From positions 2,682,336 to 2,746,335 of the forward strand of contig PSQN01000016.1 in the NCBI GenBank assembly GCA_002989075.1: a stretch of 64,000 nt of DNA. The letters are read 5' to 3'. The notes beneath the pieces are model-generated. The model saw only the letters and a program-made list of their open reading frames with translations, was not told the origin of the DNA and did no database searches. The translations under genes were made by a program, and so were the position numbers. Positions 1,040 through 54,035 of this stretch are shown one piece after another. The first letter of the stretch is position 1. Each line of letters opens with the position of its first letter. This DNA is from Arthonia radiata (lineage: Eukaryota > Ascomycota > Arthoniomycetes > Arthoniales > Arthoniaceae).

Positions 1040-3262
1040 TCACGCGGGCGTGATTCGGCTGCCCAAACCTGGAATGCTCCAGCCCTTTCCTTCTCCGGTC
1101 GGCATCCGCGGCTTTCCGAAGTGCTGATCCAGGTCAAGTATAATCTTGAGCGCGTTGCGCGAGCGCAGGTACGGCAACGGCGCTTGAGCTTCATGGAGAC
1201 CGACAGCTGGTTCTGCATGACCGCGCAGCTCCTCTTCACTCGTACCTGGCATAGGCAGCAGCTTCTGTAGAACCTCATAGCCCGCCAGTGTGAACCCGAA
1301 CTGCGGCGACGATCGCAGCACTCGCGCGGGGCCGCCTTTGAAGAAGGCGCGAAAGCCTTCTTGCTTGAACACGGTCTTGGCGCAATGCCGAAGGCCGTTG
1401 TAGGTGTCCTCACCTTTCCGCGCCTCAACCTGTAACCGCGTCTTGATGACATCACACGGCGTTGTAAGGTATGCGGCTGGCATGCCAGCAATAGCGCCAG
1501 CTGTCAGGAGTTGCACAATGCCCAATTTCTTGTTGGGACTCTCCCCGAAGAAGTCACGCTTCAAGTGGTTGTAGCTTGGGAAGTAGATGGCGGAGAACGG
1601 GACTAAGAATCTGTCAGCTTACGCGCATCCCCACATGAGCTCGTTGCACCAAATGGAAACCTACCATCTCGTAGCAAACAGGCACCGGCGCCTTTGTACA
1701 AGCCGACGATGCCCAAGTTCCGCACAATCCACATTGCCGAGCGACGCGGTGTGCCACTGCTTTTCGCCATCTCACCTTGCACCTGTAATCGAATCTTCAC
1801 GATCTCCAGGGGGTTCGTGAAGACCACCTGACAACCACCTGCAGAGCCACCTGCCAGGAGCTCGTGGCCCAACCAGATGTCTCTGGTTTTCTTGTCACTG
1901 AAATGGCCTCGCACCAGATCGTTGACCGTCAACTTGATGGCCTTTTCCGGCGCCACACCAACAAGCTGAGGTAGCACTCCCGAGTACAGCCCCTTGAGGC
2001 CCTCATTACGAATGACCTTTTTAGCACAGTCTATCGAGTTTGCATAGAGCCGCTCGCCGACTCGTTGACTCCTTTGATTCTGCATCCTTGTCTTTACGAG
2101 ATCAATGGGATACACCATAAATGCGCCAAAAGCGCCTGCGATACTACCGAGGCCGAAATGATGTGCTGACTCAAGCAGGCCGTGGAGGAAATTCTTCGTC
2201 GAAGATGCGGTATTTTTGACGGCATCAGAGGCCGCGTCCGCAGCACTGGTGTATGTGTTCTGCCAGGAGGCATCAAGGACTTTCGCAAAATCAGTCAAGC
2301 TCAATCTTCCCGTGGGTTCGTCCAGTCCAGCAAAGTGAAACAGAATGTCAGCTTCCATAGGGGTGAAAAGCGAGAACCTTGTGATTCGCGAGGCCTCATT
2401 CAGGAAGTCCGTCCGAGTAATTTTACCGTCATCACTTTTCGTCGACGCGTTCCGCACCACAAGCTCTACCAGGTCCATCTCGCGCATCATGTTCTGGAAA
2501 GCGCGCACGTTCGCGTATGAGATCTTGGTTCCCGGCCCAATGTTGCACAGTGTTTGTAGATTTGTCAATAAGTGGTCAGAAAGCTTGTGGCTTGCGGTCT
2601 CCATAATGATATGCTGAAAGTCTTCGGGCTCGATGTAGCCATCTCCGTTTTTATCAAAGTGTAGGAACGCTTGCCGGATCTTCTCTCCTTGTAAGCCTCG
2701 CAGCATCTGCGCAAACTGTGGGTATGTCATATCATGTCGGTGTCGCTTGCTTCCTATGTACAAGGATGCCCAACCGGAGTTCCAATTGAAGGGTATTGAT
2801 GAAGGTCCTTTATTCTCGTTGTATAGCCGTTGAAACTCTTCGAAGCTGACCACACCGTCTCCATTGAGATCGAACAGCCGAAAAGCGATCTCATATTCTG
2901 CGTCGGGCTTTGCGAGGAGATTTTCGAACGTGCCCCAGTCGGATAGACTGACTCGACCCCTCCGCCTGGGGTCGGCAATCTGGTATAGGATGGCGTACTG
3001 TGACCGTTTGATTTTATGCTGAAATGAGCTCAGAGTCAGCGAGATGCGATCCGCACGGTATTAGAAGCTGCTGCGAGCTTACATAGTCCTCCCCCTTGGG
3101 GGCAATTGCGTTTATGAATTGCTCCTCGTCAAGGTATCTTTCTCCCGTCTCTTCGTCTTGTATGGCATACTTGTTGAACTCTGCGCGCGTCTGCTGACTG
3201 AGCTGAGGCTCGTCCGTTGTACCAAGGAGAGCCTCTTTTGCTTGCTCTGTCACGGACGCCAT
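1040..3262 (-). CDS. AGC1: Mitochondrial aspartate/glutamate carrier with N-terminal EF-hands
   Basis: Predicted Ca2+-regulated inner-membrane carrier that exchanges aspartate for glutamate in the malate-aspartate shuttle. Exons are 3262-3083, 3018-1665 and 1602-1040, with introns of 64 and 62 bp, giving 698 residues. The N-terminal half has EF-hand loops (DLNGDG near residue 109, DKNGDG near 182). From about residue 345 there are three mitochondrial-carrier repeats, each with the P-x-[DE]-x-x-[KR]-x-R signature ([27 protein letters not shown]). The second splice rebuilds [11 protein letters not shown], a conserved carrier stretch. I chose the start MASVTEQ; an in-frame upstream Met at 3406 would add 48 residues and could serve as a longer targeting sequence. 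The domain order matches the SLC25A12/13 family and the length is normal for fungi. Confidence 0.93.
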
Positions 3263-42642: not shown

Positions 42643-43640
42643 AAGATATCTGAGGGCGAGCCTCGTTCCTTACAAACCACTCAAAACAAAACATCCGCAC
42701 GTCATTCGGTAGAATGACAGAGCATCACTCAGACCAACGCGTACCATGACACATCGAACCTCATTCGAGCGCAGCTGGGACCCATCACTCACCGAGCACG
42801 ACGCGCTTGCAAACGCTGTGGGCTCGATCTGAGGCCACACCCTCACACAACTCGCTCAAGCAAGGCCATCGACCCCCATCAAGCCGCCATTCGTGACCCA
42901 ACTTCATATGAGTCAATTCCACGCATCGGCAATGAGAGTTGGCATGGAAGACATGATCTACGACCGATTAATGATGTTGATGTTCTGAGATACTCCTTTC
43001 CCTTCGACTTGTCCATATCCTAAATACTGAAGTAAATATAAAGCTGCGAGCTTTTTATCGAACCAAATCATCGGTTCTATTCAGATTGTGACCATGGCAA
43101 ACTGCGCTCCAACCAGACCTGTGATCTCATCTGCACATGCCCCACAAAACGTAAATCCGCACGCCGAGCTCCCCAATGCGAAGTATCCTTGGCAATGGTA
43201 CACATCAACACGCAATGCCAATTTCTGTGGCCATTGGCAACATCATTGGCATTCTAGTCATGGGTGTGTTGATTTGTGTTTCCATGCGAACGAGCTGGCA
43301 ATTCCGCATGAAGCGCGTCCATCAGCGATGACAAGCTGCACGCGTCACGCCCATCGACACGATCTAGAATCTGAAAGGTGGCATATACTTTGCATGACCT
43401 GGCTAATCTCCGGCCCGCCAGCTGATCGATTTGTTGCGGCAGATGTGGCTGGTGCTCTGCCAAGTCTGCCGCATACCCTCCACACGCACGATCGAGATGC
43501 ACGTGTTCGCACACCGATCTCCTCCTGAAGTCTGTGCAAACGTGCCAACCTCTTGAGCACGTCGAACAGCTATCACAACGCCAGAGCATCTCCCTGCTCG
43601 ATTATCGGCCTGCAGCACCTTCCACGATCGGCTTTCGAGC
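42643..43640. other. Intergenic, possible micro-ORF
   Basis: No certain gene. A frame at 43215-43331 encodes a 38-residue peptide with one strong hydrophobic segment (SVAIGNIIGILVMGVLICVSM) followed by a basic tail, separately listed. The 43088-43528 frame overlapping it has no protein-like character. Confidence 0.45.
43215..43331 (+). CDS. Possible 38-residue single-pass membrane microprotein
   Basis: ATG at 43215, stop at 43329-43331. The predicted peptide has one ~20-residue transmembrane-like stretch and then RTSWQFRMKRVHQR, a positively charged flank consistent with membrane topology. It is too short to judge by coding statistics and could be chance. Confidence 0.25.
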   Translation: MPISVAIGNIIGILVMGVLICVSMRTSWQFRMKRVHQR

Positions 43641-45383
43641 ATGCATCTTCTGCAACATCGAGATCGACTTACCCTATGTCTTCACGAAGAGCCGTACTCC
43701 TTGTCGCTCTACGCTCAGCGCGCGTGCATCTATCATGAACTGGGCTACCCCGATCTCGCGGTCATGGATGTGTACAAGGTGCTGCTGTTAGCTGACGAGG
43801 TTCTTGAGTCTTCCGGTGGATTTCATGACCAGGCCTATGCATCAGCCGCGTCGATTGTTGCAGATGCGCAAGCAAACGCAGCTTTAATAGCATCACTGGC
43901 GGTGCCTACCAACGGCACAGCCGCAAAAGAGGAGCTCAACAGAGAGCATTGTTGCGATGTATCATCGTCCGAGGATGTCGTTACTGAAGTCATACGCGAG
44001 CATGTGGTTCCGCGTGCTAGCTTGCTCTTAGCATGTCATCTATGCTTCACAGGCTGTCTACGCTCCGCTTACGAATACACGCACAACGTTTTGAAGATGA
44101 ACGACGTTTATTTTGACGATGCAAAATCAATTCGTGAGCACATATTCGCCTCTGCCGAAGTCGTCGCAGAATCAAAGAAAGAGTCATGGGATCCAGCCCA
44201 CATAAACGTAGATGATCTTCCTGATCGTAGTCATGTCCGAAGAGAAGTATACCCATGGAACGATCACGAGCAAGACCGACTCGCAGCTGAATCCCTGTAT
44301 CTACTCAACGCTCAGCTCAGCTCTGTGGCACCTAAGCTGGAAGTCAAAGTAACAGAATTACCCGCTCTTGCACTACACGATGCATCCAGTGAACCTGGGG
44401 TATCTAGACAGCTTGGCGTGTTTGCGAATGAAGATATACGTCCCGGAGAGACCATACTCCGTGAGCGTTCTTTGCTGACTGCCAGTGCTAGGCTCCACGA
44501 ACCTGTCTGCGACGCCTGTAGTGCAGCATTACCCGCCATTGCCAACTGCAATGATCCCAGCGCGGGAGGGGAGCAGCCGGTCGCCTGCCCTGATTGCGAC
44601 GACATTGTGTTCTGTGGCCGCCAGTGCTTAGATCATGCACAAGATTCATACCATGGAGCCGTCTGCGGAGCAGATATTGATTCTATCGCTAAAGACGTAC
44701 CTGCGTCTCAGGCAGTCGACGCACTATATACACAACTCCTCTTCCGCTCATTAGCCATGTCATGCACTCAGGATCGCCATGCTCTCGATTTGTCGGAGCT
44801 CAAAAACATCTGGGGCGACTTTACAACATCGGACCACACGGGAAGCGCTGAGTGTTTGAGCGGATCTGATCTCTTCAAAAGCCGGTCCCGAACTCTGCCT
44901 TTCGATTTCCGCTCGCAAGTACTGCAGCCGCTTCACTTCCTTGAGATGCTCGACATCAATATATTCGAGGCCCCGCACGACCTCGCCGAAACCTGGATGT
45001 ACAACACATTGTTCGCTAAGTTTCGGGGGACGGCGAGCGCACGCATGCACCCACGTACTGGGCGACCGGAAGTTGCGGCTGTACATGCCCTGTGGTGTCT
45101 TGCGAACCATTCTTGTGACCCGAATGTGCAATGGGAATGGGCTGGTGAGATTACATTCACTGCAAGACCGGAACGAGTGAAATGGAAGAGGAAAGATTCG
45201 CATGCGGCGATAGAGAACGAGTTGCCAGCACAGCCCAGTGGCATCAAAACAGGAGAGGAGATCCTAAATCACTACGTTGACATCGATCTGGACGTAAAGG
45301 ATCGCCGCGAGTGGGGTGCTGGCGCTCTCGGTGGACATTGTCGGTGTGAGAGATGCCTCTGGGAATCTAGTGAGGCTGGATAA
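43641..45383 (+). CDS. TPR-MYND-SET domain protein (putative lysine methyltransferase)
   Basis: 580 residues from the Met at 43641, one exon. N-terminal helices resemble TPRs (EEPYSLSLYAQRACIYHELGYPDLAVMD). A MYND-like cysteine cluster follows (CDACSAAL, CPDCDDIVFCGRQC, then HGAVC). The SET core has NHSCDPNVQWEW, GEEILNHYVD and a post-SET CRCERC, matching SMYD/SET5-type methyltransferases. The SET-I part before the MYND (LGVFANEDIRPGETILRERSLL) is the SET N-terminal half, so the MYND is inserted within SET as in SMYD proteins. Substrate unknown. The frame is open upstream of 43641 to a TGA about 95 bp away, so an extra upstream exon is possible. Confidence 0.87.
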   Translation: MHLLQHRDRLTLCLHEEPYSLSLYAQRACIYHELGYPDLAVMDVYKVLLLADEVLESSGGFHDQAYASAASIVADAQANAALIASLAVPTNGTAAKEELNREHCCDVSSSEDVVTEVIREHVVPRASLLLACHLCFTGCLRSAYEYTHNVLKMNDVYFDDAKSIREHIFASAEVVAESKKESWDPAHINVDDLPDRSHVRREVYPWNDHEQDRLAAESLYLLNAQLSSVAPKLEVKVTELPALALHDASSEPGVSRQLGVFANEDIRPGETILRERSLLTASARLHEPVCDACSAALPAIANCNDPSAGGEQPVACPDCDDIVFCGRQCLDHAQDSYHGAVCGADIDSIAKDVPASQAVDALYTQLLFRSLAMSCTQDRHALDLSELKNIWGDFTTSDHTGSAECLSGSDLFKSRSRTLPFDFRSQVLQPLHFLEMLDINIFEAPHDLAETWMYNTLFAKFRGTASARMHPRTGRPEVAAVHALWCLANHSCDPNVQWEWAGEITFTARPERVKWKRKDSHAAIENELPAQPSGIKTGEEILNHYVDIDLDVKDRREWGAGALGGHCRCERCLWESSEAG

Positions 45384-46422: not shown

Positions 46423-46976
46423 ATGTTCTCATCCAAGCTTCTGTTCTTCAGCACACTCCTCCTCTTCCTCTCGACACTGACCGTCGCTGTCCCTTGCACG
46501 ACGTACATTCCTGATTGCGCTCCAGGCGAGAGCCCTTGCGGATTCTGTGGTCAGCAATGCGTAAGTGCTTAGCAAGACTTTGGCCCCGTCATCGAAGAGC
46601 ATTGAAGGGTATACAAGCTGACATTACGGACTAGTGCCCAGACACATCCATCATTGAGCGAGCCCCCGAACCTGAAGCCAAGGTCTGCCCGCTCTTTCGT
46701 CCTCAATGTGGTGACCACGAGGAGCTCTGCGGCGATTGCTTGACCAAGTGCTGCCCCGTCAAGACGCCGCGGTCTGAGGCCGAACCAAGAGCGACTTTAT
46801 GTCCGCAGGTCCAGAGACAATGCTCAGCTGGTCAAACCAGTTGCGGCGTCTGCCATCAGGACTGCTGCCCAGGGGACGGAACGCAATTTCTGGACAAGCG
46901 CTGTCCTGAAATCGTCCCAATTTGTGAGCCGACGCAGCACTTGTGTGGACCGTGCAAGACGGCGTGCTGCGACTGA
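46423..46976 (+). CDS. Small secreted protein of four identical six-cysteine modules
   Basis: Exons 46423-46560 and 46635-46976, with a 74-bp intron; 159 residues. The N-terminus MFSSKLLFFSTLLLFLSTLTVAV is a clear signal peptide. The mature part consists of four modules with exactly the same spacing, C-x6-C-x6-C-x2-C-x3-C-C. Cysteines are at 25/32/39/42/46/47, 64/71/78/81/85/86, 102/109/116/119/123/124 and 136/143/150/153/157/158. Each module has Gly directly after the third Cys. Linkers are 16, 15 and 11 residues and contain acidic and Arg residues. That is 24 cysteines in about 136 mature residues, an even number able to form 12 disulphides. The intron splits the CC pair of module 1. I do not recognise the family. 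Small secreted Cys-rich proteins of fungi are often effectors, antimicrobial or wall proteins, but no role can be assigned. Confidence 0.85.
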
Positions 46977-47675: not shown

Positions 47676-49172
47676 ATGCCGCTCATAAACCCAAACTGTC
47701 TAGGTGCGAAATACCCTCCCAACACTCTTTCCACTCCCACTGACCATTCCACCAAACCCAGAATCCGCATACCCCTACTGCCCCTCCTTCCCCGCCGCCC
47801 TCGTCAGCACCATCCTCTTCTTCCTCGTCACCGTCTACGCCATCATCCAGTACTTCCGCCTCCGCTCATGGTTCTACTACTGGATGCTCATCGCCCTCCT
47901 CGGGGAGACGGTGGGCCTGGCTGCGCGCGCCGTGTACAGCAAGCAACTCACCAACCTGCACGCCTTCGTCACGCAATATATCCTCATCATGTACGCCTTC
48001 CACTCCCTTCCCCATTCTACTCCCTCCCCCTTCCCACCACCCCACCACCCCACCACCTACATCCCACATCCCCAAACCCGCAACTAACCCCACAAGTGTC
48101 TGCCCCTCCCTCATGGCCGCATCCGTCTACATGGCCTTCGCCCGCCTCGTCTGGTACATCGCGCCCTTTTCCAAACTCAACTTCCGCACCCTCTGGATCC
48201 CGCCCCGCTGGATCACGCCCATCTTCGTCACCTTCGACGCCGTCACGTTTTTCATCCAGATGGTCGGCATCTCCGCGGCCGCGACGGCCATCCACGGACC
48301 GGGGGACGTGGATATCACTCAGCTGAATAACGGGTTGAAGGTCGCGAAGATCGGGTTGATTGCGCAGATGGTGTGTTTTTTGCTGTTTGCGGTGGTGGGG
48401 GTGAGGTTTTTGGTGGTGAGTAGGCGGTGGGGTGTGGTTAGTAGGGCGGGCAGGCATCAGTGGCAGAGGTTGAATTGGGCGGTTAATGCTGCGGCGACGT
48501 TAATCACGGTGAGTAGCCTCTTGTGTGGGGGTCGTGGTTTGGGGGGAGGGTGCTGACAAAGACAGATACGTGCGCTTTACCGCATTGTTGAGTTCTCGGC
48601 GAGTGTGGGGTCCCCGGAGGATGAGCACGGGTTTGCGTGGTATTTGTATTCGAATGAGTGGCCGGCGTATGTGTTGGATTCGTTGTTGATATTTCGTGAG
48701 TCCTACTTCCCTCTCTCCCTTACATCCTCTCGCTTCGGTCTTCTCTCTCCAATTCTCTCCTCGATCACACTCGCCTTCCGCACCCTTCGCAAGCTCCGCG
48801 CCCACGCCGCAATCACGATCACGTCGCATACAAGCACCACCTCGCCGCCATCATCATCAGAATCACACAACCACACCATCACCACACCGCCATTGCCGTC
48901 TCCCTGTTCATCCAACAATTCAGGATAGCTAACAGTCCCCAACAGTCTCCGTCACCATCATGAACGTCATCCACCCCGGGGAGTACCTGCCCACAGACTT
49001 CATCCGGGTCCGGCTGGTCAAGAAGAATGTGCGCCGCAAGAAGCAGCTGGAAGAGCAGGGCGCGCAGGTCGTGCCGTTGACGGGCGGCGCCAAGGACGAC
49101 GCGTTGGCGCCGTACAGCCATTTGTATCAGGGTGGGGCGGGGAGTTATCAGACGGGGCGGCCGGGTTATTGA
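47676..49172 (+). CDS. RTA1-family seven-helix membrane protein (RSB1/RTA1-like)
   Basis: Predicted plasma-membrane protein of the RTA1/RSB1 lipid-translocating or stress-resistance family, members of which affect sphingoid-base export or 7-aminocholesterol tolerance in yeast. Exons: 47676-47703, 47762-47990, 48097-48508, 48566-48695, 48946-49172; 341 residues, in-phase. Hydrophobic helices include FPAALVSTILFFLVTVYAII, FYYWMLIALLGETVGLAARAVY and, across the second junction, LIIVCPSLMAASVYMAFARLVWYIAP. IGLIAQMVCFLLFAVVGV and the RALYRIVEF...GPEDEH-type loop (here VGSPEDEHGFAWYLYSNEW) are RTA1 hallmarks. The ending MNVIHPGEYLP is also family-typical. The fourth intron (250 bp) is long for this window, and donor 1 is GTGCGA. 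Confidence 0.9.
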
Positions 49173-52272: not shown

Positions 52273-54035
52273 CTATCTCTTTGCACTACTGGCCACCGTC
52301 ATCAGCGTATTCAAGCTTGATCCCGCCACCTCCGTCGCAATCGGCGCCGTCGGCAACGTCCTCGCTGTGTTAGCGGCATACGTGGTCGTATATATCTCCG
52401 TCGGAATCAACGGATTCGTATACACACTCACAATACTCCCACCCAGCGTGCTCACCAACCCCGGCGCCGTCGTGACAGCAGACGTAACGCCCGTGGTCTC
52501 TCCAGGTTCCGACCCTTCCGCCGTACTCCCCTTGCCATACGTACTCTTCCCCGTTCCTACACCGGTCGTCCCTTCACACCCGGACGTCGTGCACGCAGTC
52601 ACGGTTTCCGTCACCGTCACCGTCGTGACTCCTGTACCTGCGTCGAAGAAGTGCGTCCGATTCGGCACTTCGACTGCCTCGCCTCGACTGTTGGTCGTCA
52701 CTGTCACACCATCGATCGTGTAGGTGCTTTGACCAGCAGATGTGAAGACGGCTGGCTTAGTGGGGTGAGGAACAGTAGTGATCCGAGTGTCAATGTACAC
52801 TGTGCCGGTTGTGTGGCCTGCGCTGTCAGTCGCATACGATACGGGATGGTGGGCGCTGTCCGTAGTATACGTGGCCGCAACGATGGAGGTGCCAATGACG
52901 CTTCCCAGGCTATTGGTAACGTAGGAGAAACGAGAGGCGACAATTACTCCGCTGGTGCCAGCGGCGGCTTGTGCTGTGCTGGCGAGAGTTGTGGTACCGA
53001 CCGTGCTGCCCACACTGTTCGTAATGTAGGAGACAGCTTGACCAGAAGTCTGTTCGCTCGTGGCTGCGGGGGCTTCCGCAGTGCTGGCGACAGTTGTTGT
53101 GCCGACTGTGCTGCCTGCACTATTCGTGATGTAGGAGACAGATTGACCAGTCTCTTCGCTCGTGGCTGCGGCGGCTGCGGCAGTACTGGCAAGAGTTGAT
53201 GTGCGGACCGTGCTACCTGTGCTATCTGTGATGTATGAGACAGACTGTCCGGTTTTCTTGATACTTGCAGCTGTCGTGGCACCTGTAGTTCCCAGGGCGC
53301 TCGTAGCGATCGTACTGCCCTCACCGTTCGTGATGTACGAGATAGGTTGACCAAGGCTATTAGTGCTTGCAGCTGCGATGGCTGTGCTCGCAAGAACGCT
53401 TGTGCCAACCGTGCTACCCAAACTGTTGGTTTCATATGTCACGGGCTGACCAAGGCTGTTAGTGCTGGCGGCTGCGGTGGGTGGACCACCCGGACCATTC
53501 GTAGTCATGCCCTCAGTACATTCGTCACTTTCAGTGCCTCCGCCGTAAGTAATGAAAGGAGGTTCGGTTGTTGGTCCACCCACACGCGTCCACGGTGCGA
53601 AAATCGAGGTGATAGGGGCGGCCGTAGTCTGCGGCATGTTTGTGTCCGTTCCGGCATTGCTCCCACATACAGTAGACGTGATGGTACCTGTGCCGGCTGC
53701 CGACGTAGGCCGTATACACGCATTGTTGACGACCTCCACCGTGCGAAGGCTATCGCATGCACCGCAGTCTGCCGTCTCGGTCACAGTTGTATAGTCGGCG
53801 TAGCTGGTCGGCTCACAAGCCCCTCGTTCAACCTGGAGGATTGATGTGCAGGCGCCATGGCTGAGCTCAATCGTCAGTCAATTGTAGCTTTGTGGCTTTG
53901 AAAGCGTGCGTGGCAAATGGTGGCCATGCGCGGCCGAGCAGTGTAGATAACACTTTTATCGATTTGGTGACGAGGACGAACTTACGAGAGACGTGCAAGA
54001 CCGCTAATCGCCAAGTAGGCAGCAACTGTGTGCAT
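52273..54035 (-). CDS. Secreted mucin-like Ser/Thr-rich repeat protein
   Basis: Exons 54035-53986 and 53860-52273 (125-bp intron); 545 residues. The first exon gives a signal peptide (MHTVAAYLAISGLARLS), joined in frame to HGACTSILQVERGACEPTS. A Cys-containing head of ~65 residues (CGACDSLRTVEVVNNAC) precedes a Thr/Ser-rich stalk. Residues ~151-375 hold about seven diverged repeats of 32-36 residues with the core GQxVSYITNSxGSTVGTTTLASTA. The C-terminal part has VTVTVTETVTAC followed by Gly/Thr-rich sequence. A GPI-anchor signal is not evident: the end LNTLMTVASSAKR is only weakly hydrophobic, so it may be freely secreted or the 3' end is mis-spliced. Likely a heavily O-glycosylated wall or matrix protein (inference). 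Confidence 0.82.
52786..53460 (-). repeat. Tandem coding repeat of the mucin-like protein
   Basis: About seven diverged ~100-bp units each encoding a variant of GQxVSYITNSxGSTVGTTT. Units 3-5 are most alike; units 1-2 begin NSLGQP; units 6-7 are degenerate. Copy number may vary between strains (inference from this class of repeat). Confidence 0.85.

Follow-up and report, generated by a model that had tools for sequence, protein, structure and literature searches.

The described systems that come closest to the protein considered here are the Kex2-processed repeat proteins (KEPs), among them alpha-pheromone precursors, Rep1 and ustiloxin-type precursors, and the avenatide precursors of oat. 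Surveys of KEPs require tandem repeats that are identical, nearly identical or strongly scoring, at least three of which must be separated by a dibasic site (KR, RR, KK or RK) (PMC6339444, PMC7329392), and the word cysteine is absent from the main text of the latter survey. According to a further study, an expanded Kex2 motif has Arg at P1, any of Lys, Arg, Thr, Pro, Glu or Ile at P2, and an aliphatic residue or Pro at P4, with Asp at P3 being unfavourable for the protease (PMC8528282). The X-P/X-A dipeptides that make up the STE13 signature are generally limited to alpha-pheromones within the Ascomycota (PMC6339444). The oat avenatide precursors, which are hevein-type hololectins, carry four tandem Cys-rich modules on linkers of 13-16 residues and are cut to single peptides, and the long linker class of cleavable plant multi-module precursors is given there as 13-18 residues (PMC9127739). 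Granulins are freed by proteolysis (PMC4527844).

A protein with four such repeated modules is encoded in a 64,000-nucleotide stretch of DNA, here called the window, from Arthonia radiata, which is probably a lichen former. It appears to be akin to KEPs but to lie outside their strict definition. A signal-peptide-like start, repeated units, an expanded Kex2 motif between the units and one STE13-like signature are shared with them, whereas in place of at least three near-identical repeats there are four modules alike at 9-11 of 23 residues, six of which are Cys, and a dibasic site (KR) is found in only one of the three linkers, the third. Measured from the last Cys of one module to the first Cys of the next, the linkers are 16, 15 and 11 residues long, so that the first two belong to the long class of cleavable plant precursors and the third is shorter. 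The oat hololectins also differ in being plant proteins that are cut by an asparaginyl endopeptidase and in having eight Cys with the CC at Cys3-Cys4, whereas the fungal modules have six and no Pfam match. The hevein-like/CBM18 pattern C-Xn-C-Xn-CC-Xn-C-Xn-C, as given in PMC9127739, does not fit any of the four modules, in which CC is formed by Cys5-Cys6. The granulin and pacifastin precursors of animals, which were compared by Pfam scan alone, resemble the fungal protein in being chains of disulphide modules. Pacifastin is a multi-module precursor, and the cysteine patterns of granulin and pacifastin differ from that of the fungal module.

The module gene

The gene consists of two exons separated by a short intron (Table 1), and the spliced product of 46423-46560 and 46635-46976 on the + strand is a protein of 159 residues. 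Judged by eye, it has a hydrophobic start like that of a signal peptide, with a possible cut at A22|V23. Splice solutions were enumerated between the start codon at 46423 and the stop codon at 46976 for GT-AG introns of 40-250 bases, with the donor at most 160 and the acceptor at most 330 bases from the start. The frame is open in 25 solutions, 6 of which have a GTAAGT donor; among the 25 the intron 46561-46634 is the only one that restores four modules, and also the only one in which a GTAAGT donor is paired with a branch-like CTRAY site whose first base lies 17 bases before the intron end. The coordinates, the intron and the cysteine spacing that the earlier note had proposed are right, as judged by translation and this enumeration. 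The four-module pattern is independent of the intron, because modules 2-4 sit within one unbroken exon.

Table 1. Features of the module gene, with positions in the window
Feature	Position	Strand	Residues or codons	Remarks
Exon 1	46423..46560	+		Signal-peptide-like start and module 1 through its fifth Cys; from translation
Signal-peptide-like start	46423-46488	+	codons 1-22	Judged by eye
Module 1	46495..46637	+	residues 25-47	Split by intron
Intron	46561..46634	+		74 nt, phase 0; GTAAGT...CTGAC...TAG; between Cys5 and Cys6 of module 1
Exon 2 including stop codon	46635..46976	+		Final Cys of module 1, followed by modules 2-4
IIER, linker 1	46650..46661	+		Expanded Kex2-type motif, followed by AP-EP-EA (STE13-like X-P/X-A dipeptides)
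Module 2	46686..46754	+	residues 64-86	DNA pattern and translation
AEPR, linker 2	46779..46790	+		Expanded Kex2-type motif; motif scan
Module 3	46800..46868	+	residues 102-124	DNA pattern and translation
LDKR, linker 3	46890..46901	+		Kex2-type motif with dibasic KR, directly before Cys1 of module 4
Module 4	46902..46970	+	residues 136-158	DNA pattern and translation

The module follows the pattern C-x6-C-x6-C-G-x-C-x3-CC, which occurs four times with 24 of 24 cysteines in register, and the 159-residue protein has no cysteine elsewhere. The description of four perfect modules whose remaining residues have diverged holds in full, the non-Cys positions that are alike between module pairs numbering 3-5 of 17. 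When the mature sequence was shuffled 200,000 times, one module arose in 32 shuffles and two or more in none. In DNA form, to which the intron-split module 1 is invisible, the pattern has 3 matches in the window, whereas 100 dinucleotide shuffles gave 0. Because only 30-38 of 69 nucleotides agree between modules, we infer an old age for the copies and selection for the retention of their cysteines. The synonymous codon score of the gene is 0.026 (5000 random recodings gave a mean of -0.027, an sd of 0.023 and a largest value of 0.060, and six training frames of the window range from -0.018 to 0.139); its codon usage looks coding-like, which is not decisive.

The mature protein has 24 Cys in 137 residues, with CxxC and CC in every module, a composition that would also suit a secreted metallothionein-like protein whose cysteines bind metal and form no disulphide pairs. 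This we consider quite unlikely, since the signal-peptide-like start implies passage through an oxidising path, the constant Gly and the long, invariant spacings (x6, x6) of the six Cys resemble a disulphide scaffold, and no Pfam match of any kind was obtained. Module 3 was modelled from a four-row alignment that also held modules 2 and 4 and the larger part of module 1; the model reached a pLDDT of 81.4 with a pTM of 0.39, and residues 18-21 and 27-30 form a beta hairpin in it. Exon 2, modelled without an alignment, reached a pLDDT of 43.5.

Searches for relatives and a fifth module

No Pfam-A family was matched at E<=10 by the whole protein, by exon 2 or by any of the four single modules, in a scan whose HMMER filters may let short Cys-rich modules slip through; hydrophobin, CFEM, LysM, CBM1 and LDL-receptor class A are among the families so covered. 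The module protein had no NCBIfam match at E<=10 and no match in a PDB sequence search, and exon 2 had none among PHROGs. The earlier note had held that selection maintains a repeated disulphide scaffold outside described families, and this gains support from the retention of all cysteines amid diverged residues and from the empty Pfam and NCBIfam scans. Among the open-licence papers listed by literature searches, no description of the cysteine spacing was recognised, a spacing not being in itself a searchable term, and we could not match the framework to any described one found.

Faint resemblance to one receptor family was encountered. PDB profile searches with four or five modules matched only pieces of the VLDL receptor or LDL-receptor class A modules, at E 2.2-9.9, and in one of them the three matches (E 2.3-9.9) are all to the VLDL receptor or its class A modules. 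A Foldseek search with the module model gave eight matches, none significant, and no solved fold was matched; one of the eight (9l9a) is a VLDL receptor LA piece, and two more (megalin, CD320) are proteins of the same receptor group. The module shares six Cys with the class A module, which is a weak lead only; the profile matches were set aside as chance. The LDL-receptor class A module has no terminal CC, and its acidic calcium-site pattern is absent from the fungal modules.

A search of 5.8 billion proteins, with a tool that requires shared 5-residue words and similar length, returned 24 candidates with shared words and none at E<=10. As a control query served the aspartate-glutamate carrier of the window (1606-3060, - strand), for which 4731 of 7995 candidates scored reached E<=1e-30; among 120 listed, its best named matches come from two Arthoniomycetes, Alyxoria varia (83%) and Coniocarpon cinnabarinum (90%). 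Because the control shows many fungi in the collection, the lack of relatives for the module protein can be taken as a real absence at that tool's sensitivity. Gene prediction easily misses small intron-bearing genes. Since the closest named control matches are Arthoniomycetes and the genome is probably that of a lichen former, growth on host or plant material, the setting in which the earlier note would have looked for expression, seems less apt for this fungus. Contigs of GTDB yielded 31 stretches matching the peptide pattern and no relatives among them. The full pattern matched at least 120 stretches of IMG/VR contigs, with at least 123 translated matches, at least 60 of them without an internal stop; the 30 matches listed, with frames of at least 60 residues, looked by eye low-complexity or generally Cys-rich, and in two of these 30 (L118 and L156) the module contains six Cys and no more.

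The genome itself (33,499,693 bases in 16 contigs) holds a further copy. The tail pattern CGxC-x3-CC has 29 matches, against 14 for the reversed pattern, and these are three in the module gene, one fifth module and 25 without in-frame upstream cysteines; at seven of these 25 loci the 240 bases upstream were also inspected (on the wrong strand in the case of L021), and no split module was seen. Minus the Gly, the tail pattern has 459 matches against 306 for the reversed control, listed as far as C2:2.77 Mb, so that the census is incomplete for Gly-less or intron-split modules. The CCP form of the pattern has nine matches, two of them in the module gene, and when both strands of the other seven loci were read, with Gly optional, none proved to contain a complete module. 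The same holds for all 52 loci of the genome that were examined in this way, where no other complete module was found. Two weak protein matches in the genome were taken as noise, one (E 0.146) having an internal stop and the other (E 0.0147) three stops and no module.

The fifth module, CPDIVPICPAGQVNCGECGLECC, has the complete framework and lies in an open frame of 425 residues that begins like a signal peptide and occupies C2:2264407-2265684 (L032:2407-3684), on the contig of the window and about 417 kb before it. It is identical to module 4 at 13 of 23 residues and shares with all four modules the Gly after Cys3, and the two proteins match each other by BLASTP at E=5e-4. Repeats of the type ERPxQPVxGVPWGRITPRDAN precede the module and repeats of the type PRQ...FTTVTPDPPIVTPPP follow it, and the only other cysteine of the protein stands 18 residues ahead of the module. 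The 425-residue protein, which is probably secreted, has no Pfam match and no relative at E<=1 among 7996 candidates scored. Because it differs from the module protein outside the fifth module, the module is present in more than one architecture.

That the module gene is a chance or decayed frame and does not work would agree with the search of 5.8 billion proteins, which found no homologue at the sensitivity of the tool. The 24 cysteines in register, the consensus-like intron and the homologous module in a second open frame speak against it, and this explanation is highly improbable. The net charge of the module cores (His not counted) is 0 to -2 in the four modules and -3 in the fifth, and because of these values a classical cationic antimicrobial role is mildly disfavoured.

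Linker motifs and the putative release of peptides

The linkers were scanned for [LIVAP]x[KRTPEI]R, a motif set after the P4-P1 preferences in PMC8528282. It occurs exactly three times in the module protein, once in each linker and in none of the four modules. When the pooled linker residues were shuffled, all three linkers received the motif in 520 of 100,000 trials, a figure that is not a clean p-value, the test having been chosen after the linkers were read. Signals placed between the copies in this way hint that each module may be freed as a separate disulphide-stapled peptide, and in view of the linker motifs a cleavable precursor would be no less likely than a single wall protein. The STE13-like signature (AP-EP-EA) is found in linker 1 only, and LDKR has the unfavourable Asp at P3. 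The genome has a single match to the kexin-type domain P_proprotein, located in a frame of 860 residues, and a single match to DPPIV_N, located in a frame of 918 residues.

A stricter matrix, based on yeast-enzyme data, takes Arg at P1 and scores 0 for any P2 residue other than Lys or Arg (Table 1 of PMC2515848). By this matrix IIER and AEPR score 0 at P2 and are rejected, as are the xPR sites of the 425-residue protein, and LDKR is the sole linker motif of the three that is accepted, with low values at P4 (0.09) and P3 (0.27). Because two of the three motifs are rejected, cleavage becomes less likely and an intact protein more so. The protein, which intact is 14.7 kDa, could then stay whole as a multivalent binder, secreted or wall-associated, like an uncleaved hololectin. 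Four tandem modules on flexible Pro/Glu/Ala linkers would suit such a binder, as would the shortness of linker 3 and the two putative sites that are not dibasic and, by that matrix, score 0 at P2; against it stand the expanded Kex2-type motif in every linker and in no module, and the setting of the fifth module, which is also flanked by KR and LLPR in a protein that differs elsewhere. We give the intact binder a chance only slightly below that of the cleaved precursor.

Around the fifth module, KR ends two residues before Cys1 and LLPR ends 15 residues after the last Cys; this KR has Asp at P4 and falls outside the expanded motif. The motif occurs 11 times in the whole 425-residue frame; shuffling of residues 19-425 predicts 4.3 occurrences, and 16 of 20,000 such shuffles reach 11, an excess that the internal repeats of the protein inflate. 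These repeats end in ITPR/VTPR and in LLPR/ILPR/IAPR/LAPR, and the protein resembles a repeat precursor with non-dibasic Kex2-type sites.

The explanation that we prefer, tentatively and at slightly short of an even chance, holds the protein to be a secreted precursor, split by Kex2-type cleavage into four three-disulphide peptides much as the cleavable hololectins of plants are. The reading frame, the spacing, the homologous fifth module, the places of the motifs and the genomic frames with P_proprotein and DPPIV domains are established, and secretion, disulphides and cleavage are features that we infer from sequence. The signal peptide would be removed and the precursor would transit the Golgi, each of the four modules being probably closed by three disulphides. 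A Kex2-type protease would then cut each linker once, at IIER|AP, AEPR|AT and LDKR|C, and yield four peptides, 33, 43, 37 and 24 residues long, in each of which there would be a single C-x6-C-x6-C-G-x-C-x3-CC core; the peptide of 43 residues might be trimmed further by a STE13-type dipeptidase at AP-EP-EA. The probably secreted 425-residue protein carries one such core between a dibasic KR and LLPR. The constant scaffold with its variable loops is reminiscent of peptides selected for different targets on one fold. At a guess, the freed peptides would act extracellularly on the neighbours of the fungus (alga, bacteria or grazers) or on its own wall.

A wider proposal, which we hold more loosely and as a possibility, is that the module is a new three-disulphide scaffold of an arthonialean lichen fungus, released by Kex2-type cleavage at mostly non-dibasic sites from at least two different precursors, as a counterpart of the disulphide-peptide precursors of plants and animals and possibly directed at the algal partner. 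If cleavage does occur, the gene would provide a set of concrete peptides, secreted and stable, from a fungus that is probably a lichen former, several per precursor on one scaffold with variable loops, that could be synthesised and tried on the partners of the fungus. It would also mean that surveys of Kex2 repeats that demand near-identical repeats and dibasic sites overlook disulphide-peptide precursors.

Neighbouring genes and other loci

The earlier note placed the module gene between a SET protein and an RTA1-family protein, and Pfam matches agree with both assignments. The SET neighbour lies at 43557-45383 of the window (+ strand), with a MYND finger match below the cut-off, and the RTA1 neighbour at 47744-48556 (+ strand); neither suggests a shared pathway with the module gene. 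Further along the window, at 52273-53877 (- strand), a 534-residue Ser/Thr/Gly-rich open frame has tandem repeats of the type SYITNSxGSTVGTSTLASTA and no Pfam match, looking like a secreted mucin-like wall protein. Across the genome, UstYa (PF11807) has 16 exon-wise matches, 14 of them above the cut-off and several close together. They lie on contigs C3, C4, C6, C7, C9, C11, C12 and C16, with none on C2, and could represent clusters of the ustiloxin type in a fungus that probably forms lichens.
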